A program made the translations under genes and the position numbers. From contig OY757015.1 of assembly GCA_963580285.1 (NCBI GenBank), positions 130,321,688 through 130,385,687 on the forward strand: DNA of 64,000 nucleotides, given 5' to 3'. The notes under the pieces are model-generated. The model was not told the origin of the DNA. It saw only the letters and a program-made list of their open reading frames with translations, and searched no databases. Origin of the DNA: Lucinisca nassula (lineage: Eukaryota > Mollusca > Bivalvia > Lucinida > Lucinidae). Shown here one piece after another: positions 18,134-53,800 of this stretch. Position 1 is the stretch's first letter, and every line of letters begins with the position of its first letter.

Positions 18134-18370
18134 GTAAATAGCAATATATCCGACAGTAGTCAGGTAAATAGCAGTATATCCGACAGTAGTCATGTAAATA
18201 GCAGTATATCCGACAGTAGTCAGGTAAATATCAGTATATTCGACAGTAGTCAGGTAAATAGCAGTATATCCGACAGTAGTCAGGTAAATAGCAGCATATC
18301 CGACAGTAGTTAGGTAAATAGCATTATATCCGACAGTAATCAGGTAAACAGCAATATTTCCGACAGTAGC
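18112..18370 (+). repeat. 30-bp minisatellite of an exon/intron junction (8 tandem donors)
   Basis: The unit TATCCGACAGTAGTCAG|GTAAATAGCA is repeated with few changes at a strict 30-bp period. GT dinucleotides of the donor-like motif fall at 18134, 18164, 18194, 18224, 18254, 18284, 18314 and 18344. The copy at 18194 reads CATGTAAAT instead of CAGGTAAAT; the one at 18344 reads CAGGTAAAC. The first copy is the real end of the SLC22 exon. The period of ten codons creates a long but meaningless minus-strand ORF. Confidence 0.95.
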
Positions 18371-21044: not shown

Positions 21045-21210
21045 AGGACTCAAAGGCCCCAATCCATCAGGGCTTGTAGAAGAAGACCGGGCCCCATGGC
21101 ACCCCCACTCAGAGCAGAAACCATCCGCACATATATGAGTACTTATAAACCGCTTAGAGGCTCCAAACCCGCCTATGTAAAGAGGTGCAATCTGGTTCAA
21201 CATCTCCAAA
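21045..21210 (-). mobile_element. SINE family A, old head fragment
   Basis: Its GCAGAAACCATCCGCACATAT, ACTTATAAACCGCTTAGAGG and CAGGGCTTG blocks line up with the head of the copy at 47967-48265. It is strongly diverged. Confidence 0.45.
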
Positions 21211-22264
21211 AGGCTATGCAAACAAATTCTAGGACACACAATGATTATTGCCTTCAGATATTTGTGCAGAAACCTTATAAGTTTGTTCAGATAGTTTCTT
21301 TCAGTTCTATAGCACAGCTAATTATTGAATGCCCCAAGTTCATCTAGTGTGAATTTCTTATATGTAGTTCTGCTGTTGTTTTATCAGTCTTGCTGTGTTT
21401 TGTCAGTCTCCTTGTTCCATTACCAATTTATCAACATCTTTTACATAGAAAGTTTACTTTAGGCACTTTATTTATTTATTTTTGAGCATAGAACTTTCAC
21501 AACTTATTTACTTTTTGCTTTCTTTCACTATGTGCCTTGAATATGCATAGCACACAAGTAGGCAACATTTGAGAACTGTCACATTGCATATCAGAAGCAA
21601 AGAATATGGGATATACACTCAATATTGATATTAAGTAAAGAAAATATAACAAGGGGGTGGCACTTTAGAGGCTACCGCAAGAACAACTAGATTGTGCTAG
21701 TGTCAAATTCACGACCACTCTGCCCAAGGAAAGCACAGATCAACCAGTATAAGCTGCATATCACAAACCGGCCTACACATGAGCAAATCAGGACCCACAT
21801 GGAAGGTCACTTTGTGTTATACAAAACTAGCTGTGTCTCTACCCCACAAGGACAAAGAAGTCAGAGAACAGGCTCTATCAGATTCGCCATGGTTCTGCAG
21901 TATTCTTTCATAATGAATGTCCAGAAACTAGGACGGTGTATGTAACAACAGTTAAAACATATAATTATGGGGAAGGGTGATTTTTATAGAAATGTTGCCT
22001 TTATGTGTGAAACCTTAATTTTTTCGTTTATTGCCTTCAGGGCACACTTCGTATTACATTGAATGACAGTCCTTTACTTCTTCCTTTTATTCTTCCGTAT
22101 TTCTCCAAGTACTAATGGCAGTTTAGATGCACCTTGATTTTCATAATCATGGCTATCTCTCTTCCGTTTTATGTCCTCTTCTCTCTGTTTGATCTCGTCT
22201 TACTTCTTTCTCTCTCCTTCTTCTTCTCTCTCTCTTCTCCTTCTTTCCTCCCTGGCATTTGTTC
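21211..22264. other. Intron 4, unassigned
   Basis: Nothing recognised. A CT-rich tract at about 22140-22260 may encode the basic tail of the minus-strand ORF that follows. Confidence 0.4.
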
Positions 22265-23574
22265 TTAAAATGTTGCGAGATTTGTCAAATTATCACTTAT
22301 TAAATTTAGTGCATTGGTCTGTTCTTTCATTTCTGTTTCTACGGTTTTCTCTAGGCATCTTACAGTTCTGCTATTTCTCTCTAACTCTTCCTTTAACTTC
22401 TTATTTTCTTCTTTCAATGTATCCATCGTGGTGTTGAAATGTTTTTTGGATATGAAATTATTTTCTGCCTGTTGTTTATTTAATTTTACTATCCGACAGT
22501 CATCCCTCATAGGAGGCAGTGTATTTTTTCAATATTTCCTAAACGTTAGTTCATGAGGTTTTCTTCCTCAATTGGTTCAGCACTAGATGGGCCTTGTTTA
22601 GGTGACAGAATCTCCATTTTGTCCTTGCTTCCTGTCTGGCTCGCTATGAGGGGCTTTGAAACATCAGGGGTCTCTGAGGAAGTTAAACTTGAGGCCGGAG
22701 TAGTGCGCTTTGACATTTCTTCTTGTCCAGCAGATCCCTTGGGGAGGTCATTTGTGGTATCATGTAAAACCCCAGGTGATTTGTGGCCCGTCTGTTCCTT
22801 CTCTGTGATTGATAGATCCAGAGACACATCATTCTGATTCTGAGAGGTCTGTGTTAAATCCAGGGGTTTTTCAGTGCTGCTACTCCCATGTGCATGGTTA
22901 GATGGGATAGTCTTCTTTAACGTGGTTTCCAAGTTGGGCCCCAGTAAGCGACTATCAGGTCTGGCAAGACTTCCCGGTGGCCCTGAATACCCCAGCCTTG
23001 CTGCACCTAGAAAAAGTGGCATGATCCCCAGCACAGGCTGGCCGTAAACCTGAACCTGAGGGGAACGCTTTCTGCAGGCATCTCGACTGGGTTGGGATCA
23101 CTCAAAACTGGAGCATCTCTCATCTGGATTGCAGGTCCTACTGGCACCAGTTTAACAGCCTCATATGATGTGGTAACCATAGCTGAAGTTGATGGGACAT
23201 CTTTGTCAGGTGAGATACCCGGCAGTGTGCCTTCTCCCTGACTTGTGGCATGTGGTGACTTGACTGCAACCCAATCACGTATGGCTTTGAGTTCTCCATA
23301 AGGAAACTGGGTGAATCAGGTATTTCCCTGTTGAGTCAAAGAGTCTATTCGCATGCCACCAATAGTTGCTGACGTGATTGTCTAAGTCGCCTCTCTTAGT
23401 ACAATGGAACTTGCATAGTTGGCAGTAGAAGGGTAACTGGTCAGGTCTAAGGTGTGTATTCCTGGTGTGGTTCTCGACCCTCGCCTTCTCGTCTTTGTAT
23501 TCTTTGCCGGTTGCCAGACAGTAGCGGCACTGATAATCTCTGCCACCATTGTGTTTGTTCTTCTGTTCTGACAT
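22265..23574 (-). pseudogene. Decayed C2H2-finger / coiled-coil ORF, probably transposon gag
   Basis: Three minus-strand open pieces lie in order. (1) From a Met at 23574: two finger-like motifs, CRYCLATG...NHTRNTH and CQLCKFHC...NHVSNYWWH (the second is C-x2-C-x12-H-x6-H). (2) 23034-22546: a Pro/Ser/Thr-rich linker of about 160 residues. (3) 22510-22265: a coiled coil (TLKEENKKLKEELERNS). Stops or frameshifts separate the pieces. The order (fingers, disordered linker, coiled coil) and its place among antisense retroelements suggest a gag-like protein, but no protease or polymerase is attached to it. A broken host gene is not excluded. I do not recognise the exact family. Confidence 0.5.
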
Positions 23575-24344
23575 CTTGAGATTACAAATAGACAAAGAAC
23601 GAATCCAATAATGTGAGGAAAAGAGGGACCTTAAGAGACACACCTTAACACCTTGAAGATTTTGGATCTTAATGTTCTGTACTTGGTTCGATTTGGTTAC
23701 TGGGATAGACTGATATGACAATCGGGTCTACAATGTCATACGAACCATGTGCAATCTTGGACCTTAACAAATAGAGACAACCCGAGAGACCAGAAGAAAT
23801 CTGTTTCAAGAAACATAAACATCAGCTGTTTGTCAGTGAATAAAGAAGCATAACACACACGCACACAAGTCAGTAAAGAAAAGAATTTTTTAGTCTATGA
23901 GCTGTTGTTCTCTCTAATTCAATTGGCTGCTATTGTCTTGTAGTTGCGGAGATGTAACATTTGCAGCTTCCACTAACACCAAGTCATCAACATAGCAGTT
24001 CAGGAGCATGCATGTGCTAAAGTGCTTTCTCCTAAGTGGTCGGGTGGTCCTGTCATGAGATCTCAGACTGGTCATGAGGAACTCTGAGCGGCCTTCTAAC
24101 TTAGTGACTGCATCAACCACAAAGTTAAACATGTATAATACCCAATATTCGTAATTGACTGTCGTTGATAATGCAGAATGTTCTCAGTTCTAAAAATCTT
24201 TATTGTTGAAATAGACATTTTTTGTTTTACGCCTGGGCAGGACCTGAAATCTTTACTCTTGTGCTGGTTACATAACTTCGGGTTGATCCTGTTGTATGAC
24301 TGTGATATCTCATTTATCCAACCTGTGATAATCTTAATCTGTAG
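23575..24344. other. Intron 4, unassigned
   Basis: A 72-codon minus-strand frame (24132-23914) contains LLNCYVDDLVLVEAAN. A YVDD string suggests polymerase, but the surroundings do not fit, so it is left unassigned. Confidence 0.35.
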
Positions 24345-24511
24345 TTTCTGGCCATTTTGTGGGAAAGTAACTGTCCTTATGGCCTTCCTTTGTTTAGGTT
24401 TCCATTATGGTCTGGTCGCTTAATGTTTGTATTTCTTTCCCTTTGGTGTCTTTTATGGGTGGAGTAAGTTAATTGTATCAATTCCTGATCTTTGTTTTAC
24501 TTCTACTTTGA
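24345..24511 (+). repeat. Repeat family R, second fragment
   Basis: It shares TTTGTGGGAAAGTAACTGTC, CTTATGGCCTTCCTTTG, GTTTCCATTATGGTCTGG and CCTGATCTTTGTTTTACTT with 63734-63895 in the same orientation. The two diverge after TTCTACTTT. It could be part of an LTR or an unknown element; no coding function is inferred. Confidence 0.6.
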
Positions 24512-24631
24512 TCTGCAGTTTTTGTCTTAATCTGCACTGTCCAGTCTTAATTTGTACCTTCTAGTCTTAGTCTGCACTGTCTAGTCTTAATCTGTACTTT
24601 CTAGTCTTACTCTGTACTTTCTAGTCTTCTC
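24512..24631. repeat. 20-bp minisatellite, ~6 units
   Basis: The unit is close to CTGTACTTTCTAGTCTTAAT, with a strict 20-bp period and base changes between units. It is flush against the end of family R. Confidence 0.85.
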
Positions 24632-24896
24632 TCCGACTGAAATTTCTTTTTGTTTTCTCTACACTGCAATAGAACGGGTTTGAAGGACAATTCAGTGCAT
24701 CAGATAATCACACCAGTTGCTCTTGAACTGTAATTCAAAGTAATTATGATTTTCATTTTATTTAGCAACCTGTTCCTGAGCCCAAAAAGAACAAAGTGTG
24801 CCACTGTAAGTATCGCACGGCCCTGTTAACATGCATTAAAGCAATTTAAAGGGAAGGCTCTAACGGAAATGAAAAAATCCCTTGCATATTACTGTT
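24632..24896. other. Spacer between the two minisatellites
   Basis: Nothing recognised. Confidence 0.4.
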
Positions 24897-25808
24897 CTGT
24901 CTTCTAGTGAGTTCAAATCAGGAAAAAGGTTTCCAGACTGTAGAAGATTCTCTTTTTGTCTTCTGGTGTACTTCCACTAGACAACACTTTCAGAACATAG
25001 CAAATGATATTTACCACTTGTCTTCTGATTTTCTCCGATCAGACCACAGGCTCAAACTGTAATAATAAATATCGTCCGTCTTCTGATGTTCTCCTATTAG
25101 ACCACAGGCTCAGACTGTAATAAAAAATATCTTCTGTCTTCTGATGTCCTCCCATCAGACCACAGGCTCAGACTGTAATAAAAAATCTCTTTTGTCTTTT
25201 GATGTTCTCCCATCAGACCACAGGCTCAGACTGTAATAAAAATACCTTCTGTCTTCTGATGTTCTCCCTTCAGACCACAGGCTCAGACTGTAATAATAAA
25301 TATCTTCTGTCCTCTGATGCTGTCCCACCGGACCACAGACTCAAACTATAATAATAAATATATTCTGTCTTTTGATGTTCTCCAATCAGACCACAGGCCC
25401 CGACTTTAATAAAAAATGTCTTCTGTCTTCTGATGCTGTCCCATCAGACCACAGACTCAAACTGTAATAAAAAAACTCTTCTGTCTTCTGATGCTGCCCC
25501 ATCAGACCACAGACTCAAACTGTAATAATAAATATCTTTTGTTTTCAGACCTCCCATCAGACCACAGGCTCAAAGTGTAATAAAAATATCTTCTGTCTTC
25601 TGATCTCCCATCAGACCACAGACTCAAACTGTAATAAAAATATTTTCTGTCTTCTGATCTCCCATCACACCACAGATTTGGATTGTAATAAACAATCTGT
25701 TTTCTGATGTTCTCCCACCAGACCATAGGTTTGGACTGTAATAAAAACATCTGTTTTCTGATGTTCTCCCACCAGACCACAGGTTTGGACTGAAATAAAA
25801 AATCTGTT
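24897..25808. repeat. 50-59-bp minisatellite, ~16 units
   Basis: Units of the form TCTTCTGATGTTCTCCCATC, AGACCACAGGCTCAGACTG, TAATAAAAAATATCTTCTG. The clearest fourteen run from 25021 to 25808, with two older diverged units before them. Lengths range from about 50 to 59 bp because of small deletions. Most units contain AATAAA on the plus strand. The minus-strand frame at 25849-25502 (repeating WSDGRSEDR) results from three shorter units and is not a gene. Confidence 0.92.
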
Positions 25809-25949
25809 ACTCCAGCGTGGCAGAAAAATAAATCAAACACAATTGACAATCACTTAATCTTAAAACTACTGAGAAAAAATCGGTCTTGAAGATATGGCTT
25901 TTTAGTTCCATTTCTGTGATTCCAGGGTGGCCTTGACTATCTTGGCCCA
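25809..25949. other. Junction of minisatellite and gypsy 3' end
   Basis: No LTR could be recognised here, so the 3' border of the gypsy element is undefined. Confidence 0.4.
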
Positions 25950-27187
25950 CTCCTGGACATTTTCCCATTTGTATGGTTTTTATTTGTTCTGATGCAGTAC
26001 TTGCTGCAGTCCAGACTGTGAAAGCTGGACTTTAAAGTCAAGGTCATTGTACTTCTGTGTTGTTATGCAGGGACCCCTGTACAAGGCCCGTAATTTTGGA
26101 GAAATTCCAGGATTACTAGCCTCTATTTCATCCAACTGTTCTCCTTGAAGATAGGATATATCATTCGTAAGAGGCTACAATTGAATCGCTCAGCTTGGCC
26201 GTTGCATCTGGGGTTTCTCGGTGAGGTCCTTGTTTTCTTGATTTCAAGAACTTTACACAACTCGGCCATAATAGAACTTTCAAAGCATTTTCCTTGGACT
26301 TAATGCAGAGTAAGGGGGCAGCCATATCGTGCTATAACCTCATTGAATAGTTTGTTGGCACACGTTTTGGCGGTCTGATCTGGCACTGTCATGATCTCCA
26401 CCCACTTTGTGTGCAGTGGTCAGTGGCTAACAAAATATACCGATTGCCACATGGTGTAATGGGGAAATGGTCCCAAAAGGTCAGTAGAAATTCTATCTAG
26501 TAGAGCACCAACCTGCATCCTTCCCAAAGGTGCACGGGATTTACGTTGTGGTGGCTTTATGGAGGCTAATACATCACACTTTACTATCCACATGTGAACA
26601 TCCTCCCTAAATTTGTACCAGTAAAACCATTGTAATACTTTGCCTTGGGTCTTCTTTTGACCTAATTGTCCTGATATTAGGGAATTGTGAACTTGTGCCA
26701 AGATTTCCTTTTTAAGCACTTTTGGGACAATGAATTGCAAATTGCAATCAGTTGCATCTTTGCGGTAGAACAACTTGTATAAGCATCCGTTTCGCAAAGT
26801 CAGAGAATCCCATATGCTCCGATAGTGCCGGGTGGCTGAGCTCAGCGCTACCACTTCAGAGTGGGGAGGTATTTCACCTTTGAATATGGCATTCATAATA
26901 GGTGCCAGTTCAGGATCCGTTGATTGCGATCTGTGAATTCTGGCCAAATCTTGATCAGATAGCCATTGATTTAAAGAGGTGCTAGTGGTCTTTGAAGGAC
27001 CCGGGAGAATCTGGCCAATGTATCCCCCAGTCTGTGATCTAGTGTTGACTGCTCGGACACTCTCAGCTTGTTCTGTGTGCTGTTCAGATGCCTGATTGGT
27101 CATTATTCGAGTATCACCTTGCATCTCTTTGTATCGCTTGGTGCACTTTGCACAGGGTCCGCACTTCAATGATTCAAGATTATCCAC
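25950..27187 (-). pseudogene. gypsy integrase
   Basis: The frame 27187-26420 holds CGPCAKCTKRY, the N-terminal zinc-binding region (AQVHNSLISGQLGQKKT, where a second His has been lost, then a damaged CDVLAS region) and the start of the core with ISTDLLGPFP (first catalytic Asp). Other frames continue it to about 25950: WVEIMTVPDQTAKTCAN, FESSIMAELCKVLEIKKTRT and NGQAERFN (the Glu). The second catalytic Asp is lost at a stop near 26300. It cannot be active. Confidence 0.8.
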
Positions 27188-27628
27188 TTCTGAGCAGTCA
27201 CAGTCCCCGGGATCCGGACAACGTTAAGGAAGTCCACATTATCGTGTTTTTCCATTGCGGAATTCAATGCTGAAATCATACGCAGAGAGTATCTCAATCC
27301 ATCCGGCCTTTTGGTTCTTTTAGCCGGAAAAGGTAGGTTAAAGCTTGGTGGTCACTGCGTACTTAAAGTTTCTCCCAAGCAGATACAGTTTGTAGTATTC
27401 AGTGAAATACCTGATAGCAAGTAGCTCTTTATCAGTTATACAGTAATTACTTTCTGATTTATTGAGGGTCCTGCTTCCATAACTAATGACTCTCTCCTTC
27501 CCGTCTTGTATCTGGCTAAGGATACCAGCAACCTGAGTATCACTGGCATCAGTATCTTAAATAAACAAGCCACCATTGTTAATTGGGTAGGCCATTATAT
27601 CCGAGCTGGTTAGTTTTGCTTTTAAAGC
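27188..27628 (-). pseudogene. gypsy RNase H
   Basis: With interruptions, it reads NNGGLFI*DTDASDTQVAGIL (TAA within the motif), ERVISYGSRTLNKSESNYC and TDKELLAIRYFTEYYKLYL. Asp (DTDASD) and Glu (KELLA) positions are recognisable. Two stops in the first 40 codons and frame changes after 27350 make it a relic. Confidence 0.7.
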
Positions 27629-28674
27629 TTAAAAGGACTTCTTGCATTGGTCAGTCCAAACAAAAGGCTGATTCTTATGTGTTAATTGTATCAGTGGTCT
27701 AACCAGGTCACTGTAACCCTTAATGAAACGACGGTAATAACTACCAAGGCCGAGTATTTGCCTAACATGTGTGGGAGTTTTAGGAATAGGCCATGCTTTC
27801 ACCTTTGCTAGATTTTCTGGATTCGGAAGAACTCCCTCTGTAGAGACATTATGTCCTAAAATGTTTACTTGTGTTTGCAACAGCCGACATTTTTCTGGCT
27901 TCAGTTTTAAGCCAGCCTTTTTCTTTCGCGTCAAAACCTCCTCGACTCTATGCATGAGCTCATCAAAATTTGCCCCGTAAACCAGCACATCATCAACATA
28001 TATGAGGCAAGTGTGCCACTAAAGGCCATTCAAAGCTATTTCCATAAGCCTTTGAAAGCAAGCAGGACTATTGGAAATTCCCATTGGCATAGTTACATAT
28101 TCGTATAAGCCAAACTTGGTGCAGAATGCACTTTTGCGTACATCCGATTCGTTTATTGGGACCTGGTGGAAGCCGAATGTAAGATCGAAACTTAACAAGA
28201 ATTTAGCACCTGTAATGTCATCCAAACAGTCATTAACCCTTGGCTTTCTTACAAATGATATTGAGCCTCCATGGTCTAATTTTTCCCGACCGCTTGCTTA
28301 CAAGACATATTGGGCTAGCCCAGGGTGAGGTACTCTTCCTAATGATCCCTTGCTCCTCAAGTTGTTTTAAGACGTTCTCTTCCTCGGCTGCAAAAGCAAC
28401 AGGGATTCTGCGAGGGGCATGTTTTATTGGAGGATGGTCACCTACATCTATTGTGTACTCTATTAAATGTGTGAGGCCAAGGTCAAAATGTTTCTTGGAA
28501 CTTGTTCAAAGTCTGAGCTATCTTGGCCTTCTCGGCCTCTGTTCTGTCGGTACAGGCAGTCCGATAAAGATCTTGAAGGTGCTCAGGCGCTGGTTCTTCA
28601 GCAACCCTTCTCAATCCCGCACGACAGTTTTCGGATGGAGTATGTGTTGTTTCGCATGGAAATGTGGGTTGTGA
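27629..28674 (-). pseudogene. gypsy reverse transcriptase
   Basis: The frame 28225-28019 carries FDLTFGFHQVPI, KSAFCTKFGLYEYVTMPMG and SPACFQRLME. A TAG at 28019-28021 interrupts it, and the same frame goes on with the catalytic YVDD (27989-28000), then KKKAGLKLKPEKCRLLQTQV, LGHNVSTEG and FIKGYSDLVRPLIQLT (the connection to RNase H). The N-terminal part upstream of 28225 is present but frameshifted. Confidence 0.85.
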
Positions 28675-29122
28675 GATTGTAGCTTTAGATGCACAGTGTG
28701 TGGTGATGTATTGGGTTGCAGGGTATGAATTGACATTTCGGAATGTCGGGTAGGTGGATATGTCTTGGGATACTAGATGTGGATTGTTTGTTTTTAGATG
28801 CCCGGTGTGTTAGAACGTTTTGGGATGTTAGGTGTGAATTGTCAGTTTTGGATACCTGGTGTGCTGGTATGTTTTGGGATGCTAGTTTTGAATTGTCATT
28901 TTTCGGATACTTGGTGTGTTGGTATGTTTTGGGATGCCTGGTTTGAATTGCCATTTTCAGATGCTCGGTTTATTGGCGTGTTTTAGGATGCTAGGTGTGG
29001 AAGTGTATTTTCCTAAAAAACTGTGGAAATTTTCATCACATCCTCAGCAGTTCCAATGGCAGTGTCTTGGTTTATTGAGATGTCATTTATGTTGGGTTTG
29101 CAATCTCACTTTATGGGCGCCA

Positions 29123-29700
29123 TTAAAAGACAGCACCGATCTTAAACTCTGGACCTGGTTCTAAGAGAACAGGAGTTTCCTGCTGGTCGTCCCCCTCTAG
29201 CCTGCTGATGAAAACTTCTATTATCTTGCCAGGGATAACAAATCGGTCTGCAGCAGCGATTCTACGAATCTTGGGAGCAGAGCCCACTGTAATGCATGGT
29301 ATTTTCATGCCCATAAACAGTAAAGCACATTCATCATACTGTAAATGAGCCCCACCCATGCTTAAAAGGTCGTGCCCAAATAAACCCTCATCTTCAATAT
29401 TCGCCACTACAATGTCTGCCTTGAATTGGAGACGAGCTAACTCGATAGTGAACTCTGCGGTTCCTTGCGGTTCCTAATCGTGACAGACCCATGGTTTTAG
29501 ATAATACAGGCCTGTTTGACCGCGGAATTGGTTGATAAACTGTTTTGGATATAACAGTTTTAGTCGCCCCTGTATCTTTTCTGCCCTCCAAAAATGCCTC
29601 CAAGTAGAACCCATTACTGCGAACTTTTCCTTTCAATGAAGAGCCCTCGCACATTTTTTCTATTGTTAAAACTGCGGGTGCAGAGCAGTTCCAAAGGTCA
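29123..29700 (-). pseudogene. gypsy protease region
   Basis: The aspartic protease signature DTGAT lies at 29562-29576, followed by KTVISKTVYQPI. The continuation is in the frame 29407-29123 (GLFGHDLLSMGGAHLQYDEC), after a shift near 29400. Retroviral-type proteases use D-S/T-G at the dimer active site, and the DTG here is intact. The region between 28675 and 29123 is a poorly conserved linker, including a 62-bp-scale imperfect repeat (GGTGTG...TTTTGGGATG) at about 28740-28990. Confidence 0.65.
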
Positions 29701-29754
29701 GATAACCCTTCAGTTGATGACGCCTCTATGGATCTTAATACGGAGGTTTTCTGG

Positions 29755-30411
29755 TCAGTTTTGCCCCCTTCCGACGATCTTCTTGAGTGTTGTTTTAGTG
29801 AGCCCGATGAGTCTTTCCCACCATCCTCCATACCATGGGGCCAGCTTTGGAATGAACTGCCATTCTAATCCCATGTTGGCGAAAGTCGTTTTCATGTATG
29901 TAGAGGTGGACAGGAAAGTTGTCGCATTGTCCGACATATTAATATTCGGTAAGGACTTCCGGCTGACAAATCTTCGAAAGGCTTGAAGGAAGGAGTCTGT
30001 CGACATGCTGATGACAACTTCTAAGTGTACAGCTCTGGTAGTGGTACATGTAAATAAGCAAATGTACGCTTTGTCTTCGTTAGCGTTAGGTTGACGTATG
30101 CTCAAAGCGCCGGTGAAGTCAATGCCAGTTACACTAAACCGTGGCTATTCTTCTACTCTAATCTTTGGAAGTGGCGGTGGGTCAGGTGCTCTATATGGTT
30201 TCCCATTGACTCGTCGACATTTGTGGCATGCGTGGACAACGGAGTTGACGACCTGTCTAATAGCAGGTATCCAGAACTGTTGACGAATGTGCGCTACTGC
30301 AGCATTTGAACCAGAATGCTTATGATGCTCATGTGCGTCGCGAACAATCAGTCTGGTCAGTTGCTGTTTCTTTGGCGTCTTCAACGTTGGCATTATAGAT
30401 TCTCCCACCAC
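29755..30411 (-). pseudogene. BEL/Pao integrase
   Basis: It has the N-terminal zinc-binding pattern HEHHKHSGSNAAVAH with CHKCRRVNG, and the core with CTTTRAVHLEVV, SDNATTF (second Asp) and WYGGWWERLIG (Glu). The two open pieces 30411-30145 and 30105-29755 are in different frames; the first Asp lies near the break. It stops at about 29755, where a BEL integrase would continue for a C-terminal domain. Confidence 0.85.
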
Positions 30412-30452
30412 ATCGAATGCAGCCCGACTTATCTAGAAATAGTCGTAGCTGT

Positions 30453-31419
30453 TTAACAAGTGGTAGTCGTGACGTCATGGACTTCAAAAGTTGCAAGATC
30501 GTCTTGAAAAGCGGCTAACTGACAATCGTGCAACAGTTTTCCCTCTGCTTCCTTGATATCGTGTGCAGACAAGATTTCCGTTTTGCGAGCTTGTTTCTGG
30601 ACTCGGCAGTTAGAAATAAATCTCAAGACGTAGGCTGTCACACGTAGTAGGATCGTGTAGCAAATGTACCTATCCACGTTTCTGACGTTCAGTATGTTCG
30701 TTTCGGCTAAACTATTGTTTTCGCACGTGGTCGTCGCGTCACCTTGCAAATGGGCGGTTACTGTAGCGTCGTTCTCAAGTACAGACTGAACGGTGAGGTT
30801 TTCACAACTCCACACTGGCCAAAGGTTACGTTCACAGATTCATGCTGGTCCGAGCTCTCACAGGTCGTTGCTTTTCAGTTGGTCGGCGGATTTCTCGTGT
30901 CAAAAGATCTGCAGGACTGTCGTGTGTTGGGCAGTATTTCCATTTATATGGATTTGTTATCTCGCGAATCTCTGTGACACGTCGGGCAACAAAACGTTTC
31001 AAAGGTTTTGACGTTGAGAGCCAATGCAGGACAATCTGGCTGTCTGACCAAAATGTGATCTCTGTCGTAGGCAAGGATTCTTGTAAATGTTTCGCAAGAC
31101 GGGCTCCAGTAAGAGATGCCATAAGCTCTAGCTGTGGAAGAGACAAAGTCTTCAACGGTGCCACGCGGTTCTTTGCAATAACAAGTATTGTATTGTAATC
31201 GTTACAGATGTATGCTGCAGCTCCGTATGCTCTGATACTTGCATTAACAAAAATGTGCAATGAAATATCGTTGTTTCTGCCTGGAAGTAGTTTTCTGCTC
31301 AACTCCATAGCTGCTATGCTGCTCAAGTCATGTGCAAGTTGACTCCAAGTATCTTGAAAATGGGTCGGCAGCGGAACATCCCAGTCATATTTCAGCTTCC
31401 TTAATTCTTGCAGCAGCAA
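30453..31419 (-). pseudogene. BEL/Pao RNase H and linker
   Basis: Frame 31419-30832: LKYDWDVPLPTHF, SLHIFVNASIRAYGAAAYI, LPQLELMASLTGARLA, FWSDSQIVLHWL and FVARRVTEIRE. The first catalytic position reads Asn (FVNAS) where Asp is usual; Glu (LPQLEL) and Asp (SDSQ) are kept. Frame 30815-30453 is the linker between RNase H and integrase. Confidence 0.82.
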
Positions 31420-31596
31420 ATAGGCGCGAATTGTAACTGGACTGAGTAATCCGTCAGGATAGGAAAGTCGTGTGCAGCAAAAGTGAGCGTGTCTGTTGCT
31501 GGTTCCCAGTGCAACCCTAAGACTTTGTTGACGACCCCGTTATCTAGGACGCCTTCCCATCGCGCTTCTTCTCTCAGGGTGCTGCTGTTTGATGTC

Positions 31597-32480
31597 CTAC
31601 GATCTAAGGTTCATCCCTGCTTCAGACAAAAGACTTCTTGCATCACGAAAGTACTGCAGGGCATCTGATTCTCTCCGAAAGCTAGAAATCACGTTGTCAA
31701 CGTAGAGGCCCCTTTCTATGGCGTGAGAAGTGTCGATATTCTTGTTGAGCTGCAGATGTTTGAGAAGCGTAGCATTCAGCATAAAGGGGGAACAGGTTGT
31801 ACCAGATAATACAGACTTGAAGCGGTATGTAGCAAATTGACTGTTTAGATTTGCTGAATCATAAAGCCATTTTTTTTTTGGGGGGGGGGGTTGGTTTTAC
31901 GGCCCTTTCAAGATTATTTCGGTCATATCGATCCGATCGTTAATCAGAGGTGGGCGAAAACCGGAGTACCCGGAGAAAAACCACCTAACCTTCCGCTGCA
32001 GAACTTGGCGTCTCACATGTGACCCGAGCGAGGCTCGAACCACAGCGGTGAGAGACCTAATTATTAAGAGTCAGCGCTCTTAACCACTAGGCTACGGAGG
32101 CCCGTCATCAAGCCATAGGAATCTCGTAAAATCACGGTCTTTCTCGTGAAGTCCAACGTGCAGGAATTCTTTTTCCATGTCAGTGGTCACTGCAAATGCA
32201 TTACGTCGAAATCTCACTCAGATGCTGGTTAAGTTGTTTATAACTGTAGGTGTTGATTTAAGACAGCCATTAAGGCTAGGGTGGTTTTGAGACTGACGAC
32301 AACTGCAGTCATACACAATTCTGACTGGCGTAGTAGATTAATCTTTCTTGACTGTGCGGTGGGGTATCTAGTGTACTTGCGACGGCGGTTCTTTCTCAAC
32401 AGGCACCTTCTCCATAAAGTCCCGTCTCTCCCGATCCCTGAAGATCATACCTTTGCAGGACTTCTGGTTCCCGATGTAAT
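31597..32480 (-). pseudogene. BEL/Pao reverse transcriptase, split by a SINE
   Basis: The N-terminal part at about 32480-32110 includes RDFMEKVPVE and TPVRIVYDCSCRQS in minus-strand frames. The part after the SINE includes FATYRFKSVLSGTT, then frame 31782-31597 with GLYVDNVISSF (YVDN in place of YxDD) and SEAGMNLRS. A variant YVDN may be a lineage feature of some BEL elements rather than damage. Confidence 0.75.
31871..32104 (-). mobile_element. tRNA-derived SINE with perfect A and B boxes
   Basis: On the minus strand it begins GGGCCTCCGTAGCCTAGTGG. The A box TAGCCTAGTGG is at 32084-32094 and the B box GGTTCGAGCC at 32032-32041. A body with TTTTTCTCCGGGTACTCCGG follows, and it ends in a C/A run (plus-strand T10G10). 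The flanks TCATAAAGCCAT (31859-31870) and TCATCAAGCCAT (32105-32116) are a 12-bp target duplication with one change. It is inserted in the BEL reverse transcriptase. Confidence 0.87.
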
Positions 32481-32487
32481 CGGTTAA

Positions 32488-33028
32488 AGGTGCATTATTG
32501 AGCTATCCGGAAAAAACGCTTCCAAAAATAAAATACATTTTGCCGGTATTTTTCTTTAAAACAATAAAAATGAATGCATTTTATGCAAAAATGCGAACAA
32601 TTATGATGACAGGTAAACGAATTTGAAAGAGATTCCCTAACTAGGTTTCGAACACTAGTTAGATCTATTTTTAGTTCGTGACAAAAATAGAATCTCCATA
32701 TATGACATTATGCGACGTTCATTTTTCGCCTTGTTTGCTTAGGCCATGCCTGAATCGGAAAAAAAAATATGACGCTGAATACCATGCCATAAGTATTGAC
32801 ACCCTGAGACGATACTGTCGCCATGTATGTGTAAAGTGACAGATTTATTTTTAGAACAGAAATTCCGAACACATGTTCAGAGCGAAGGGTAAACAGGAAT
32901 GAAAACGACCATTTTCACAAAGTTCTGAAGCTGTATTTGGTTCCAAAAGTGTACACATGACAAAGGAGTATGCATTGAAGATAAAAAACAGAAAAAAAAT
33001 TTAGACCCGGTAGCTCAATAATGCACCT
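32488..33028. mobile_element. TTAA-flanked MITE, piggyBac-like
   Basis: The ends AGGTGCATTATTGAGCTA and TAGCTCAATAATGCACCT are perfect 18-bp inverted repeats, each flanked by TTAA (32484-32487 and 33029-33032). TTAA duplication is the hallmark of piggyBac. The 541-bp interior has no transposase. It is inserted between the BEL protease and reverse transcriptase. Confidence 0.85.
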
Positions 33029-33126
33029 TTAATGGTACTCCCAGTTCTTTTCAGCGTGATGTCGTAGTTTGACGGCAGGGCTGCATGGTCTTGTTTCCAA
33101 GGTAGTTTTGCATAGTATCTGTCGTC

Positions 33127-33934
33127 TCATAGCTCAATTGACTCGTCCTGGTACTGCTTCGTGTAATCCGTAGCTTTCTCATCTGATTTTTCAGAGACTA
33201 TTCTCATGCTTTTTAGACTCCAAAAGCGCTCAAGTGCATTCTCTTCCGGTATACGGATACGGGAGGTGATGACGTTCTCAAAGTGCTCGGTTGGTCTCCC
33301 GTTATTACTGGTAGGTGTGTCCGAAACCAACCCTGACAGCAGATATCCAATCTTCGACGGCTGTAGGTCCATTACCGCGAATGATTTCATCTACGATGTC
33401 CCAGTAGTGATCTGTGCAGATTAACAAGGAAATGGTAAATGCGGTATCCCGTGTTACCGGGTATGCGAGTGTTAAACCTGGAAGATATGGTAAGTCCCGG
33501 ACAAATTGTAGTTTGCTAGAGTCGATTGGTGCTGCTATGGACGGTACAATCAGCACGCGGATAGGAATCTTCTGATAGGAATCAGTCATCAGAAATATAG
33601 TTGATGTCTCTAAGTGATGTACCGCGTTGCTGTTGCCCCCGAATGTTGACAAGCAAACTGTCTGTGTGTCATCTCTGGGAAGTTGTAGGTCATCGGCTAA
33701 ATTAACAGTTATAAATGACCTTTGGGCGTCTTCGTCAAATAAAATGGGTGCGTCACAGTGGGTGCTTGAATAACTAACGGTGGATATTGCTGTCTTCAGT
33801 AGTACTCCCGCGGGCGACTGTGGTGTTGCTGCATGAAGAATAGCTGCACCATTTCTCGACGTCTGTATATCCGTAGGAGGGTTGTTGGGTTGTTGATTAG
33901 ACGGCGACGTCTGACAAATACTTGTATGGTGCAT
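33127..33934 (-). pseudogene. BEL/Pao protease region
   Basis: Frame 33934-33305: AGVLLKTAISTV, APILFDEDAQRSFIT, LPGLTLAYPVTR and TDHYWDIV. BEL proteases usually have DxG/DxGSQ here; this copy shows DEDAQ, so the glycine is changed. An overlapping frame (33390-33127) holds the downstream part (PSKIGYLLSGLV), implying a shift near 33350. Confidence 0.75.
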
Positions 33935-33959
33935 TCTGCGGCATTTCTGTCATCTGCGT

Positions 33960-34873
33960 TTAGATTTGCAGGCTGAAACTTGATGTCTCACTAAGCAGCT
34001 GATGCACAATTTGTTCCTTTTTACAACCGCTATACGAGCTTCTGCGTTCGCATATTTCTGGCAATTTACGGCTACATGCGGTCCATGGCAAAAGAAACAT
34101 TTGACAGGCGGTCTGGGCTAAACGCTCGGTTCCGCTGAATCGGATCTGTTACTCTGCTGTGGTTTGGACATTGCACCCGCGAAAAATGAGGCTGTAGAAC
34201 CGTATATTTCAACGTCCGGATGATTTCTAGGAAACCCGGCCTCAATAATGTTGATTTCTCTGTTTATGGCCCGTCGTAACTCATCAAGTTGCCAATTGCT
34301 GTCTCCGTGTTCACGTGCAAGAATTTTCATAATTTCGCCCCGAAGTTTGTCCAAAACGATTGGTACGAGCAAGCTACCATAAGTGTCTTGATGGACTCCA
34401 AACCACGAATATACGTCTCCATCTTGTCGTAAAATGTCTCAGGCAATGCATACTATCAGTCGGCGTCGGCATTTGTAGCAAAGCTTGCAGAATGGAATGA
34501 GTAATCTTGTGCTGCTGACTTTCAGCAGATCCACGGCACGTGCATAATTGGCATTGGTGAGTGCAAATCCATCTATAGTTCTCGTGGCATCCGACTCTAG
34601 CTGTGATTTAAGATAGCTAAACTTCTGCACATCAGTAATGTTAACATTTAAGTGAATTGTAGACTCAAACGAATCCCAAAATGTCTGCCACTGTAAAATG
34701 TCACCATTAAATGTAGGCAATGAAAGTTTGGACAATCCATGATATTGTGAAGAACTTGACGAGGTCTGGCTTAGAGTTCTCTGAATCACCAGCGGACTCG
34801 GGGGTGCTAAAGCAGTAGACGACTGAGCTGCATGTACATCGGTCACGGACTGAGCATCCCTAGCACTCAACAA
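33960..34873 (-). pseudogene. BEL/Pao gag with zinc knuckle
   Basis: Frame 34873-34439 has LSKLSLPTFNGDILQWQTFW, DSFESTIHLN and KFSYLKSQLESDATRTIDGF, typical of BEL/Pao gag. It shifts frame near 34500 and continues in 34372-34118 (LVPIVLDKLRGEIM). A CCHC-type region (KCFFCHGPHVAVNC and CISCLVRHQVSAC) follows at about 34105-33965. Confidence 0.8.
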
Positions 34874-35197
34874 TGGCGGTAAGTGCCTCGCATCTGCACC
34901 CCCCCCATTGACTTTTGCTGTACGAACGGAGTTCTCGTATGCTAATTTCTAAGTTTAACGTATAATCCTCACCTTAAATAATTTCCTCTTCAATCATAGT
35001 GCAGTTTATATTTTACTTTTGGTCCTTTGAGATCAGCGTGAATATTCTGAGAAATCAGAAATAAATTATTGGTTTTGACTCATATTATAGACAGGTTTTT
35101 AATTATTTGGACCCCATTTTGATTTATATCAGTCTTTGATAGATTGCCTATTTGAAATCCGCAAAATTGCAGTATGTTTCCTTTGGCTTTCTTTGCT

Positions 35198-35258
35198 AGA
35201 TCATTACAGGGTCACTGATGAGGCTTTATTAGCCGAAACTACGTAGTATGACCCATCT
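35198..35258 (+). ncRNA. Type I hammerhead ribozyme, copy 1
   Basis: All core positions are present: CUGAUGA (35215-35221), stem II GGC-loop-GCC (35222-35234, loop UUUAUUA, or GGCU/AGCC with UUAUU), GAAA (35235-35238), a short stem III ACU..AGU, and cleavage triplet GUA (35246-35248). Stem I is GGGUCA (35209-35214) with UGACCC (35249-35254), extended beyond a 7-nt bulge by AGAU/AUCU. Predicted cleavage is after A35248. Stem III is tiny and self-complementary (CUACGUAG), as in other retroelement hammerheads that may work as dimers. Confidence 0.9.
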
Positions 35259-35576
35259 GTCTTATTAATGTTTTCATTGCTCTTAAAGGAACTCATTTTT
35301 GATTTTTATTTGCCTTCACTGCAGCTGGTGTTGTGCCGTGTGGCGGCCGTAAAACGTCTCCCCGTACATCAACCATAGTGCTGTTTATATTTTACTTTTG
35401 GTCCTTTGAGATCAGCGTGGATATTCTGAGAAATCAGAAATAAATTATTGGTTTTGACTCATATTATAGACAGGTTTTTTATTATTTGGACCCCATTTTG
35501 ATTTATATCAGTCTTTGATAGACTGCCTATTCGAAATCCGCAAAATTGCAGTATGTTTCCTTTGGCTTTCTTTGCT

Positions 35577-35637
35577 AGATCATTACAGGGTCACTGATGA
35601 GGCTTTATTAGCCGAAACTACGTAGTATGACCCATCT
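35577..35637 (+). ncRNA. Type I hammerhead ribozyme, copy 2
   Basis: Identical to copy 1 over the whole folded region, with CUGAUGA at 35594-35600 and predicted cleavage after A35627. Cutting at both sites would release RNA 35249-35627 (379 nt). Confidence 0.9.
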
Positions 35638-35690
35638 GTCTTATGAATGTTTTCATTGCTCTTAAAGGAACTCATTTTTTATTTTTATTT

Positions 35691-36009
35691 ATGCACATGC
35701 ATGTTTTAGCCATAAACACATGGGTTACGTTTGTTTCCGTGAGACTGAAAAGATGGGCTATCTTTCAAAGCAAAATTCACGAGCCATTGTTTCATTTAGA
35801 ACAGACCTCACACTTTCGACGCAAAATGAAGTAAAATTAAGTATGCAACCTATCATCGCAAAATGATTTTTTTTTTTTTTTTTTTCATTTTGATCAAACA
35901 TCTTATGAAGTAAAAACTGCATTTTATTTCTTTTCGCATCGACTAAGCCGGCGCAAAATGAAATAAAAAGTTAAAAACATTACTTCTTTACTTCATTTTA
36001 CATTGTATC
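35691..36009. other. Intron 4, unassigned
   Basis: It contains a poly-T run at about 35868-35886. No gene is seen. Confidence 0.4.
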
Positions 36010-36320
36010 ATAATTCAGTGGCTAGTTCACTTGCCTCTGATGCTAGAGGACCCCGGTTCGATCCCCAGCGTTGGTAATTATTTCGGTGTCCTAACACCCT
36101 CCATATACCATTTCCAGGGATGAATGTCAATAAAAACGTTCTTCGGATCAGCACGTTAACTGGAGCCCCCATATGCAGCGAGAGTCATCCCCTGTTGAAG
36201 GTTAAAGTCCCTACCATAATTACATCATTACTGTCTAGGATTTCTCCCTTCAAACCTGGTGTGTACCTTATGTGCACCTGTGAGTAACGGTCATATGTGA
36301 CCAATCGCAGTTTAAGTAAT
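36010..36320 (+). mobile_element. Probable tRNA-headed SINE
   Basis: A degenerate A box (GTGGCTAGTTCACTTG) and a perfect B box GGTTCGATCC (36055-36064) are followed by a non-coding body. No anticodon arm or acceptor stem is sound enough for a functional tRNA. The 3' end and target duplication are not clear. Confidence 0.5.
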
Positions 36321-36548
36321 TTGCTAGAACAAAACACTTTCTAAATGGGTCTGGTTAGCATACGTTTTTCACATGGCGATGGGAGTTTCTGTTAAACTCT
36401 AATGGCATCCCACTGTAAAGTGCTTTTCTTCTTTTTCTACCCTGCTTAATGCGTGTTAGGCCCGTCTCAAATCATATAGCTTTAACGTATACCCAATTCA
36501 TTTAGGCATCAGCTCAAGGTCTACAATTAACGATATATTATAGCAGTC
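36321..36548. other. Intron 4, unassigned
   Basis: Nothing recognised. Confidence 0.4.
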
Positions 36549-36551
36549 TTA

Positions 36552-37431
36552 ATTCGGCTCTAACACTGTCACGACTCTGACCACGATCGTCCACGACTGT
36601 CCACGACCAATGGGGACCATGAAAATCGTGGCAAATCGGAGCATACACGGTTCCGATTTCACTACCCTACGAATACTCACGACATTGCTGCGCCACTTCT
36701 ACGGACAATCACGATTGCTGTACGATAATGGAGCCGATTTACAACGATCCTCCACGATCGACCACGATGTATTACGATCCTCTAGGATTCTTCTACGACT
36801 GCACCACGATTGCTTCAAGATGTCAGACGATCATACACGATTTCTCACAATCCCTGCAAGACTGCTCTACGACCAAGGCCGAATTGGCACGATGATCAAA
36901 GACTCAGTACGATCATGGAGGAATCGATACGATTTACTCACGATTAACCAAGACTTCTCCCGATTCGTCAGGATTTATAACGATCTGGGTATATAAAAGT
37001 GTTCGTCGGGATAAATCGTGCTAGCTTCGTCATCAATCGTAGTGCATTCCTGGTGAATCTTGCATTGTCGTGAGCAGTCGTCGTGATATCGTAGTAGATC
37101 GTACGGCAGTCGCAACGGAATCGTAGAGGCGTCGTAGATGATATTGTCTCGTCGTAGCGCAATCGTGGTAGAATTCAGTCACGATTATTGGCGATTGGCT
37201 ACGATTACCACGACGACGGCTCACGACTGAGCTACGATATGAAAAATGATGCCGACTCGTCATGAATGTTTTGAACATGTCCAAGACAGTCGTGGTCACT
37301 CCCGAACTATCACGATCAACCACGATTCCTCAAGATCTCTTCCGACTTCTCTACGACGTTGTTCACGATTTACCACGATTTAAAAAATCGTGGTGAGTCG
37401 TGGCCAAAATCGTGACAGTGTAAGAGCCCCT
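36552..37431. mobile_element. PIF/Harbinger-like non-autonomous element made of CACGA motifs
   Basis: Ends GGCTCTAACACTGTCACGA (left) and TCGTGACAGTGTAAGAGCC (right) are inverted repeats, and TTA is duplicated outside (36549-36551 and 37432-37434), as for PIF/Harbinger. The 880-bp interior is packed with short CACGA/TACGAT motifs 10-12 bp apart. They point one way in 36565-37000, mostly the other way in 37010-37170, and switch again after. Several open frames through it are by-products. Confidence 0.75.
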
Positions 37432-37570
37432 TTAGAAACTAATGTGTACTGCCGAGACGGTTCCATGGAAAAATGTATACTTTCGTATACTTCACTTTTC
37501 CCCTCATAGAGTAGATATTTTAGAAGTCTGCAGTACACAGACTTTAAATTAAAAATATATTTTGTTTCAG

Positions 37571-37643
37571 GAATATTGGTTTTGGTGTCTGTAGTACCCT
37601 GTCTCGTGTTGGAGCTGCTTTAGGACCACAGTTGGTTTACTTG
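37571..37643 (+). CDS. SLC22 exon (TM11)
   Basis: A 73-nt exon (1 + 72) between TTTGTTTCAG|G and TACTTG|GTTAGT. The first base completes Arg of EIYPTVVR; then come NIGFGVCSTLSRVGAALGPQ and LVYL. The (R)NxGxGxCSxxxRxG pattern directly after YPTxxR is standard for SLC22 and opens TM11. It ends in phase 0, matching the start at 41160. The donor GTTAGT is weaker than the others in this gene. Confidence 0.92.
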
Positions 37644-42029: not shown

Positions 42030-42302
42030 GCCGGCCCCGGTAGCTCAGTCGGATGCGCGTCTGACTGGTGATCAGGAGGACGCGGGTTCGATACCTGCCA
42101 GGGTCGGTAGCCTTCTTTTGTCTCCCTTCCGCTGATTCAAGAAGGACAGTTGTCAGTTTCTTGCGAAAGAATAAGCACTGTACTGGTTAACCGCTTATGT
42201 ATAAGCCCAGTCTGCCCAGGATAAGTGTTGATAGGTAAACTACCGGCTCAAAAATGACCTATTGACTGGGCCGTTAAACTCCAATACAAACAAACAAACA
42301 AA
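42030..42302 (+). mobile_element. tRNA-derived SINE, family D, with 13-bp target duplication
   Basis: The head is tRNA-like: acceptor arms CCGGCCC / GGGTCGG, A box TAGCTCAGTCGG (42041-), B box GGTTCGATACC (42085-42095), anticodon-like loop CTGGTGA. A body follows and a tail GCCGTTAAACTCCAATACAAACAAACAAACAAA. A perfect 13-bp duplication, ACGTTCATTCTTT, flanks it (42017-42029 and 42303-42315). The intact boxes and exact duplication suggest a young insertion. Confidence 0.92.
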
Positions 42303-48277: not shown

Positions 48278-49849
48278 AGTGTGTATTACCAAGAGCATCG
48301 TGCTATGAATAACACTTACCCGACTGACTGACGGTTGTTTTTAAGGTAACCGGGCGCCATGGGCACATAGGGGCTACCCCCAGTTCGCCATCTGGGATTA
48401 GTTGTAGGTACTGCTCTTTTCCCTAGGTTGCCAATATGCTGACTCCTGTCTGCTTGACAGTTATCAGCTAGCCGATTGGGAGTTGGGTGACTGCTTTCGC
48501 GGAGGATGTGAGAAGTAGGTCAATCCCACCTCCCACATCCCCCGCTCAAGATGTCATGTAGGCACAGAACGCACCCAATGTTAAGCGTTTGTCCTGTAAA
48601 ATGGGCAGTCCTCTGGCGGGGTTCGAATTTTGAATGCAGATGCAGACCAATGGTCGGGCTCTAGAATGTGGTGACACGTTGCCAATTCCGGCTGCAAAAT
48701 GTGTCAGTACACAGCCCTTGTCTGACCGAGGAAAAAAGCTTCTCATGCATTATCGGTTTTGGCTTCCATTAGACTCTACCCCCACCCCTGCCGTGGTAGA
48801 GAAAACGCCTTGGACACGGTGCTTGTTAAAGGGTGATAATGCATGTAATTTTGAATTTTGAACGGCGGCCAAAAGTGAGCCAGGAAGGGTTACTATTAGA
48901 CCAGCCAATTTCGGCTATTGCAAAATGTCCTAGTACCCGTGCTCTACCACCTTGAGAACACGCCTATGCTGTGTCGCTACCCCCCAGGTCTCTACAAGGA
49001 TAATCTTGGTAGTACCATGTACTGCTGGCCCCTACTTTCGTCGCGTTGAGATGTCATATGTTGGTGTTTTGGTTGTTGCTTTTCTCTTAGTTTGTAGTTA
49101 ATTCAGCCAATCAGTGTGCAGTTGTTGACTTCTATCGTGGAGGATGCGAAAGGAGGTCAATCCTATTTTGCTTCTTAGCTTTTCATTTTCTGAAAAGGTG
49201 ATGCTTTCATCGACGTAGGATGTCGAGTTCTTATAAATTCGTAAGTGGGTCAATTGGGACCGGACCGCCATATTTGCATATCATTTTCTCATCCTCCGTG
49301 AAGGAGGATATCATAATGGGGATATATGGATTGTAATACATTATGGATCAGTACTGATTGTATGTGGTAGTGTTGTAACCCTCTTTTGTTCAGGAGCAGT
49401 GTGGTTAGAATTATAATGTTTACACATAGGCGTGTCTTTTAGTGGTGAAAAGTTATGTGGTTTGGCAAAGGCGAGTATGTGGCTAACCAGCCATTGTGCA
49501 ATTTCGCTTTTATTTCATTTTGAACGGTCGGTCTAAAAGGCTTTTTTAAGGGTCTTCCTGTGTCCAAATCCCTATCAAATTTGGTCATTACCGTTGCCCC
49601 GCCTATTAAATTGTTCTGTATTTGACCTACTCCAGAGATGTATGCTCCGTTCTGACAGCATGCTGTCTTCGCTTCGCACATTTCCGGGTTTCATCAGGAG
49701 GGTGTCCCCAAGGGAGCCTCTACGAGGCAGCCTTCTGGGCACCCAGCTGATGACTTCTCGGTAGCTGTCCTACACGAGGTATGGTGGGAATCCCCGTCAA
49801 GGATCCCCATGTACCTGCAAGAGAAATTATGATTAGTGTGTATTGGAGT
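48278..49849. other. Intergenic, unassigned; partly duplicated
   Basis: Two regions share wording: GGAGGATGTGAGAAGTAGGT at about 48499 and GGAGGATGCGAAAGGAGGT at about 49140, plus GCCAATTCCGGCTGCAAAATG and GCCAATTTCGGCTATTGCAA. This suggests an old duplication of ~640 bp. No gene is recognised. Confidence 0.4.
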
Positions 49850-49893
49850 TAGGGTTAGGGTTAGGGCTAGGGTTAGGGTTAGGGTTAGGGTTA
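49850..49893 (+). repeat. Interstitial (TTAGGG)n
   Basis: Seven TTAGGG units with one GCTAGGG variant. TTAGGG is the animal telomere repeat; here it is interstitial, as sequence continues for more than 14 kb on both sides. Confidence 0.95.
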
Positions 49894-51250: not shown

Positions 51251-52125
51251 CTATATTTTATCGAATAACTCAGTGTCTTTCAAAAATGTAATGATTGCCT
51301 CAACTATCTGAAGCCTAATGTTTCGTGGGGGGTTAAGTAGGTCTTGTTCATCAAAAGTGTTGTATCCCAATATAAACAGTGCAGCTTTTAATTCCTGTCT
51401 GGGTTCTATATTTCCTTCACAGTGAAAAAGGATATGTTTGATGTTATTTTGTTCATCTTTATCACATCTATTACATTTGATGTGGTTTTGATTAAATACA
51501 CAATGGGTCCCTAGTTTACTATGGTTTAGACGCAAACGTGTGTAAACTGCGTCATGTTTTCGGTTATCGCTGTAATGGGTAGTAGTATTTTTAACCTTAG
51601 GTTCCAGTCTATGGTAGAAGCGACCTTTACTTTGTGGGTTGTCCCATAATTTTTGCCATTTTGTCATAATGGCCTGGTTAATTGCCGGGTATATTTCTGT
51701 TTTGGTCGGTAAGGTCTGATCGTTTTTACCGTTTGTCATTGCTGATTTGGCACTTGAGTCTGCCATTTCATTTCCTGGGATATCTACATGGGAAGGAATC
51801 CATTCCAGGTAGATATTGTTGCCTTTGTCTTTGGCTGAGTCTAAGAGTAGAAGTATTTTGTTTATTTTATCTGGTCTTGTTTTTGATTGGCCAGGTTGGA
51901 GGGCTTGTATTGAGCTGAGGGAGTCTGTAAGTATGACTGCCTCCGGGATGTTATTATCGATGATCCATTTAATGGCATGTTCTATTGCTATCAGTTCAAT
52001 AGTAAATATAGACAGGCTCGGATTGGTTTTGAGTTCGATATTCAAGTTTTCATCAGGGACCGAAACTGCTGCTCCTGCTGTTTGTTTTTCAATATCTTTG
52101 CTGCCATCTGTATATATCTGTAATC
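51251..52125 (-). pseudogene. LINE RNase H and C-terminus
   Basis: One frame, open from about 52125, includes DGSK (52097-52108, first Asp), FTIELIAIEHAIKWII (Glu), ILTDSLSSIQAL (Asp) and WIPSHVDIPGNEMADSSAKS (His, last Asp), so all RNase H catalytic positions are kept. The C-terminal CNRCDKDEQNNIKHILFHC is a typical Cys/His motif of I-group LINEs. The frame ends normally at 51251. Confidence 0.87.
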
Positions 52126-53768: not shown

Positions 53769-53800
53769 AAGTTGGGATAGAGTGTATGAGAAATGTATTA

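Follow-up and report, generated by a model that had tools for sequence, protein, structure and literature searches.

The stretch of DNA analysed here, referred to as the window, comprises 64,000 nt of the forward strand of the bivalve Lucinisca nassula (GCA_963580285.1, OY757015.1:130,321,688-130,385,687), whose genome of 2.93 Gb is assembled in 696 contigs. Its + strand carries parts of an SLC22-like gene, which we located by tblastn with an OCT1 transporter protein sequence as the query. An exon at 12539-12673, the 3' part of another at 18063-18133, followed by a 5' splice donor at 18134, and a further exon at 37571-37643 are colinear with the query, and AG and GT signals are present at those of their edges that were readable. 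The matches are weak when taken singly (tblastn E 0.11, 0.16 and 2.6); the joined translation of the three exons matched 33 solved sequences, all of them SLC22 members or related SV2 proteins, with OCTN2 as the best match (E 2.6e-13). Two motif searches for SLC22 missed the gene, and a Pfam scan of the + strand, read through stops in 8 of the 9 frame stretches of 20.0-64.0 kb, returned one sub-cut-off chance match and overlooked the single known SLC22-like exon of that region (37571-37643). The last two exons enclose an intron of 19.4 kb (18134-37570), which contains a retrozyme copy in sense orientation, so that the placement asserted in a preliminary description of this DNA, based on inspection of the sequence, is borne out by three colinear exons. 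The end of the exon at 18063-18133 and its splice donor also make up a 30-bp minisatellite of 8.5 copies (18115-18369); as the array includes the donor, a donor-like site repeats along it, mutated in some of the copies. Elsewhere in the window we observed a tRNA-Thr (GGT) at 42032-42107, recognized by ARAGORN and by the Rfam tRNA model, and, on the - strand, pieces of a non-LTR-type reverse transcriptase, endonuclease and RNase H at 8126-10625 and 51254-53801.

The retrozyme copy occupies positions 34990-35690 on the + strand (701 bp, or 1.85 units). It consists of a complete unit of 379 bp (34990-35368) and a partial one of 322 bp (35369-35690), which, according to comparison with the rest of the family, terminates at the common 3' end discussed below. 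The direct repeats with a period of 379 bp, initially described as 321 bp long, extend over 322 bp (34990-35311 and 35369-35690) at 97.5% identity with 8 mismatches, while the repeat finder reports 300 nt at 98%. The 57 bp missing from the terminal unit correspond, by the same family comparison, to 35312-35368 of the first unit and would lie on the 3' side of the point where reverse transcription is inferred to begin. The unit has a GC content of 37% and no Pol III boxes by simple consensus, and no open frame of at least 100 aa exists within 34990-35690; the element thus encodes neither a reverse transcriptase nor a GIY-YIG endonuclease.

On both sides the copy is bordered by other repeats. 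To its left lies a decayed piece of a BEL/Pao gag gene (DUF1759; 34442-34948, - strand), identified by homology to paralogues that extends to the 5' junction of the retrozyme and is lost past it. Four BEL/Pao paralogues continue past the junction via TCAATC, without a match to the right flank of the window, which points to a short overlap at this junction; because the paralogues share TCAATC with the element, the junction can be placed only within 34990-34995. The gag piece is part of a fragmented BEL/Pao element on the - strand (29758-34948), in which gag DUF1759, a weak DUF1758, a peptidase A17 and a weak integrase core can be discerned and whose gag homology terminates at the retrozyme. The right flank (35691-36300) belongs to another repeat family, for which 816 candidates were found; 40 of these were scored, and many of them begin at 35694; a box-B-like GGTTCGATCCC near 36050, noticed by eye, suggests a tRNA-derived SINE. 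The empty site of the window copy was not recovered, the right flank being itself a repeat, and no target-site duplication of 6 bp or longer was found at the copy.

According to the general layout of type I hammerhead ribozymes, a descriptor search assigned two identical motifs of 61 nt to the + strand of the element, at 35198-35258 and 35577-35637. Each comprises, in this order, CUGAUGA, the stem II hairpin, GAA, the palindromic ACUACGUAGU that forms stem III, GUA, and stem I, which has 6 bp and 4 outer pairs. The palindrome ACTACGTAGT of the first copy (35238-35247) pairs in the predicted fold with its counterpart in the second copy (35617-35626), placed by both the descriptor and the predicted fold. 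A relaxed type I descriptor, applied to both strands of the window, finds exactly these two motifs and none in 300 dinucleotide shuffles, and a 34-position pattern allowing up to 3 mismatches finds 2 matches, compared to 0 in 100 shuffles; the complete core attributed to both repeats at the outset is therefore present. The positions then proposed for cleavage also agree with ours: it is predicted to occur after A35248 and A35627, and would thereby release an RNA monomer of 379 nt, defined by position only (35249-35627).

The covariance-model check envisaged in the preliminary description gave scores below threshold. In the Rfam search of the whole window no hammerhead reached the gathering score, the best values being 20.3 bits against a cut-off of 48.5 (type III) and 19.6 against 56.3 (RAGATH-1), and the element is thus not filed under any of the Rfam hammerhead families. 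In our judgment this shortfall is outweighed by the descriptor results and by the genomic evidence presented below; the Rfam hammerhead models presumably suit the shape with a short stem III poorly. Exact-pattern scans of viral and of bacterial/archaeal contigs gave 0 matches.

Prediction of secondary structure, with energies computed without tertiary contacts, favours as the preferred form a double hammerhead in which two copies of the motif share the palindromic stem III. The lone motif is predicted to misfold (-14.0 kcal/mol, versus -9.4 to -13.2 for the hammerhead fold), and the monomer fold is disfavoured (z -0.74); for two motifs together, the unconstrained structure of minimum free energy (MFE) is the double hammerhead with a shared stem III of 10 bp (-42.3 versus 2 x -14.0 kcal/mol). 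When the 701-nt RNA is folded, its MFE structure joins the two palindromes in cis, with part of stem I engaged in other pairs; the full double hammerhead lies 1.2 kcal/mol and two single hammerheads 11.9 kcal/mol above this minimum. Given the predicted misfolding of the lone motif, both members of the tandem pair are probably needed for cleavage. For the predicted circle of 379 nt we obtained -78.5 kcal/mol (z -0.72), a value equalled or bettered by 39 of 200 shuffles.

The copy in the window is one member of a large, non-coding, non-LTR retrozyme family. The genome-wide count of copies suggested earlier was carried out with the hammerhead-core pattern, which has at least 23,399 dispersed matches in the host genome (11,689 + 11,710), as against 0 for a control pattern. 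A similarity search with the window unit, in which 40 of 2,366 candidates were scored, gave full-length matches of 93-96% identity, the window itself aside. Units in the genome usually measure 383 bp (379 bp in the window), and the size of the copies varies between a fraction of a unit and 7 units, the latter in locus L030. Two samples of loci were compared: L001-L030, which were chosen for their resemblance to the window unit and overlap in part, and L031-L080, picked by an intact core from the first 9 Mb of one contig. From their 98 chains we removed 9 of less than 100 nt and 7 duplicates; the remainder represents 82 copies at 74 loci, with the 3' end visible in 78 copies and the 5' end in 80. 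Among the core-picked copies with both ends visible (n=53), 26 are shorter than one unit, 19 have 1-2 units and 8 have two or more. The core and stems I-III are retained in 158 of 193 unit rows (91 of 105 if picked by similarity, the others having been chosen for the core), a tally in which overlapping loci are counted twice (193 rows, 67 distinct). One of the core-picked copies (L031, near position 2127) terminates directly in a telomere-type CCCTAA array, and an interstitial GTTAGG array is found in the window at 49848-49893. Two pairs of copies (L015/L053 and L009/L049) appear by eye to reside in the same host repeats at near-identical places, and such pairs could supply empty sites for the mapping of insertions.

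Elements of this kind have already been published from animals, and the Lucinisca family, with a sequence of its own, is an additional member. Non-LTR retrozymes with type I hammerheads and units of 350-390 bp are known from Mytilus galloprovincialis (Cervera and de la Pena 2020, PMC7229834). The element described here has a core with three stems, a repeat within about 150-450 bp, a GC content below 50% without coding capacity, and many dispersed copies, as is characteristic of metazoan retrozymes. In the available text of PMC7229834 we find agreement in unit length, type I hammerhead, short stem III and tandem copies, as well as in the GC content (37% here), the lack of coding sequence, the thousands of copies and the presence of Penelope-like frames in the genome; the difference lies in the sequence of the family, described here from genomic DNA. 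The hammerhead repeats of newt and axolotl (330-350 bp), as described in the same source, likewise have a weak palindromic stem III and favour the dimeric hammerhead, the difference being the number of motifs, 126,247 in axolotl. Plant LTR retrozymes are similar in that ribozyme-made circles have been proposed as their intermediates (PMC4918200), and differ, as described in PMC7229834, in that they possess LTRs, have hammerheads of type III and generate target duplications of 4 bp. With its anatomy, its genome-wide family and this close fit to the published metazoan retrozymes, the initial designation of the element as retrozyme-like holds, and we regard 34990-35690 as a well-supported retrozyme copy.

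The sense orientation and the two identical motifs could be taken as signs of recruitment, with the intronic copy serving to cut the SLC22 pre-mRNA or to regulate it. However, the genome contains no fewer than 23,399 core matches, in view of which a single sense copy in a 19-kb intron is unremarkable, and the sites at which its units differ show a distribution compatible with chance. As pointed out in the preliminary description, the 61-nt fold is free of the 8 differences; this is true but uninformative, with a probability of 18% by chance. Across the family, the hammerhead is not more conserved than the remainder of the unit (2.6% versus 2.2% divergence; 1.9% versus 1.9% and 5.8% versus 2.4% in subsets), and together with the 18% these figures leave selection on the hammerhead unsupported. 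One-sided transitions in stems I-III keep the pair in 19 cases and break it in 5, a weak signal given that the mutation rates of the family itself predict about 60% keeping, that the core-picked sample is conditioned on part of the motif, and that 23 transversions break pairs. Recruitment therefore appears hardly credible to us, and the copy is probably a passenger in the SLC22 intron, its placement incidental.

The most informative feature of the family is a common 3' end. In 68 of 78 copies the 3' end falls within unit positions 322-332 (21 of 24 similarity-picked and 47 of 54 core-picked copies) and in the other 10 outside this range, whereas in 2000 trials with randomly placed ends no 11-nt window contained more than 11 of the 78. 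The end of the window copy at 35690 (L001) coincides with it. Since the cleavage site follows unit position 260, the common 3' end lies about 66 nt (63-71) downstream; an end at 260 itself would not have excluded a locus from the core-picked sample, because the pattern stops at 260. Genome-wide, 15,436 exact 24-mers end at position 326, of which 7,151 (46%) continue for 10 nt further, a proportion whose control is local only, drawn from the core-picked loci, where 28 of 44 continue past 326 compared to 40 of 48 at the control site. The six positions of weakest continuation among all 383 are 319-324 (median 0.78). Among all windows of the unit, the 57 nt located 3' of the inferred start are the least variable in the sample with 46 units; in that with 18 units they take rank 23 of 383.

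The 5' ends, on the other hand, are scattered, although not fully uniformly, with 27 of 80 in positions 321-383 (Rayleigh p about 0.002) and no clear peak near the cleavage site (4 within 258-268, compared to 2.3 expected). Copies of 327-383 nt, which would correspond to a stop after one full turn, show no significant excess (9 versus 5.0 expected, p 0.11). At 67 loci we found no target-site duplication above a mismatched-pair control; 4-bp flanking repeats occur at 11 of the 67, compared to 8.4 expected, which does not amount to a duplication of the plant type. In published metazoan retrozymes target-site duplications exceed 4 bp when present, that is, they are optional (PMC7229834, available text). 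Neither the scattered 5' ends nor the common 3' end, some 66 nt beyond the cleavage site, were found in the portion of PMC7229834 consulted, and the common 3' end was likewise absent from that of PMC7761336, in a comparison covering these two accounts of animal retrozymes. Relative to these two sources the common 3' end is new; it may be in print elsewhere.

All 68 copies with the common 3' end are at least 105 nt long and hence span the cleavage site at 260, so that the linear cut monomer cannot have been their template, and since the common end lies downstream of the cut point, the template must be sought in a circle or an uncut multimer. The distribution of ends thus suggests an RNA template, either circular or an uncut multimer, on which insertion is primed at a constant internal position. 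It also bears on the possibility that the family is an ordinary satellite, dispersed and homogenised by processes acting on DNA, with the hammerhead as a relic. The resemblance of tandem units within a locus would agree with such an origin, but the copies are dispersed, almost half of the core-picked ones (26 of 53) amount to less than one unit, a single 3' end is common to 68 of 78, and the core with its stems is kept in 91 of 105 similarity-picked rows, counting overlapping loci twice. We consider a satellite origin very improbable.

If the template was an RNA, the variants of the tandem units provide a clue to its form. In a comparison of 39 multi-unit loci out of 67, pairs of units share 4.09 private variants within a locus compared to 0.25 between loci, and diverge by 2.3% and 4.9%, respectively. 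At four of the 39 (L006, L048, L069 and L072) the units have no private variant in common, L048 being two separate copies. The shared private variants imply that the units of most multi-unit loci were copied from one template. This could be a circle, or else the uncut linear multimeric transcript of an existing array, in which case the ribozyme would be unneeded for mobility. An uncut multimer accounts equally for the tandem units and for the spanning of the cleavage site, it agrees with the lack of a clear peak of 5' ends at that site (4 in 258-268, 2.3 expected), and it has a precedent in the Penelope-like element of Anolis, which used unprocessed RNA in vitro (PMC11167929). However, the units of L007, L015 and L025 are identical while sharing 3-5 private variants, and the 7 units of L030 diverge by 0.2%. 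Identical units fit one circle, whereas an older source array should transmit its own differences. We therefore favour a circle as the template and consider an uncut multimer rather unlikely.

As the retrozyme encodes no enzyme, candidates for an autonomous partner were sought in the host genome, which contains at least 138 GIY-YIG matches (150 of 746 candidates scored), with open frames of up to 820 aa and five same-strand pairs about 3.8-4.0 kb apart. In one frame (L085) a weak reverse transcriptase match (NCBIfam E 5e-05, under the cut-off) precedes the GIY-YIG domain, and reverse transcriptase motifs are also recognizable by eye. Pfam identifies nothing but the endonuclease in either L085 or L086, and the L085 frame has no counterpart among solved structures. 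Judging by the layout of a reverse transcriptase followed by GIY-YIG, these elements appear to be Penelope-like. A further GIY-YIG family of this type (L087, G000:C6:63494200-63495100) apparently carries a distinct frame upstream, in which RG repeats are frequent. We searched for a link through shared sequence and abandoned it: the stretches of L085, L086 and L087, which do not include pseudo-LTRs, have neither a hammerhead nor similarity to the retrozyme unit, and a Penelope-like partner is thus unproven. It could also be argued that what we regard as an independent retrozyme is in fact a fragment of the pseudo-LTR of a Penelope-like element, given that Penelope-like elements carry hammerheads and tandem structure (PMC7761336, available text). 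To this we give very little credence, in view of the head-to-tail repeats with a 383-bp period, up to 7 units in L030, without an intervening coding part, and of the lack of similarity to the Penelope-like stretches examined, pseudo-LTRs not being among them.

A Penelope-like element may nonetheless be the partner of the independent retrozyme proposed here, as suggested by what is known of such elements. The purified Anolis protein starts reverse transcription internally, 111-118 nt into the frame, and requires RNA 3' of the start site; the hammerhead of that element cuts at 26 and is dispensable for insertion in vitro (PMC11167929). The start thus lies, by simple arithmetic on these values, 85-92 nt downstream of the cut, compared to the inferred 63-71 nt in Lucinisca. 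Like the hammerhead-bearing Penelope-like elements of that study, the retrozyme has tandem copies and 3' ends attributable to an internal start downstream of the hammerhead; unlike them, it has no reverse transcriptase or endonuclease. For animal retrozymes, cleavage, circles and ligation by RtcB have been demonstrated, and copying of the circles by a Penelope-like reverse transcriptase has been proposed, both according to the available text of PMC7229834.

The explanation that accounts best for these observations as a whole, to which we would assign a probability of roughly three in four, combines a copy of a retrozyme family, a double hammerhead, a circle, priming at a fixed site, and a passenger in an SLC22 intron. 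In the fold adopted by a transcript with at least two units, the palindromic stem III would be common to two hammerheads; this double hammerhead would cut both sites and free a unit-length RNA, to be circularised by a host RNA ligase. A reverse transcriptase borrowed from an autonomous element, most likely a Penelope-like one, would then nick the target DNA and begin to copy the RNA at a constant internal position, about 66 nt downstream of the point at which the cleaved ends were joined. The enzyme would travel around the circle for part of a turn to several turns and stop at variable points; the resulting copy would be constant in its 3' end, variable in its 5' end and composed of tandem units. 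The more general proposal, that animal retrozymes are inserted by target-primed reverse transcription from a fixed site on the circle, by a borrowed Penelope-like enzyme and over a variable number of turns, is tentative and falls a little short of even confidence.

The return of animal retrozymes to DNA is an open step of their cycle, for which the published model proposes a borrowed reverse transcriptase that copies a primed circle. Among our results it is the fixed internal 3' end that merits further study, as it names both an RNA stretch and a start site and thereby makes the insertion step testable. If circles are indeed copied into the target from a fixed site, the genome of Lucinisca would hold a direct record of RNA circles being copied.
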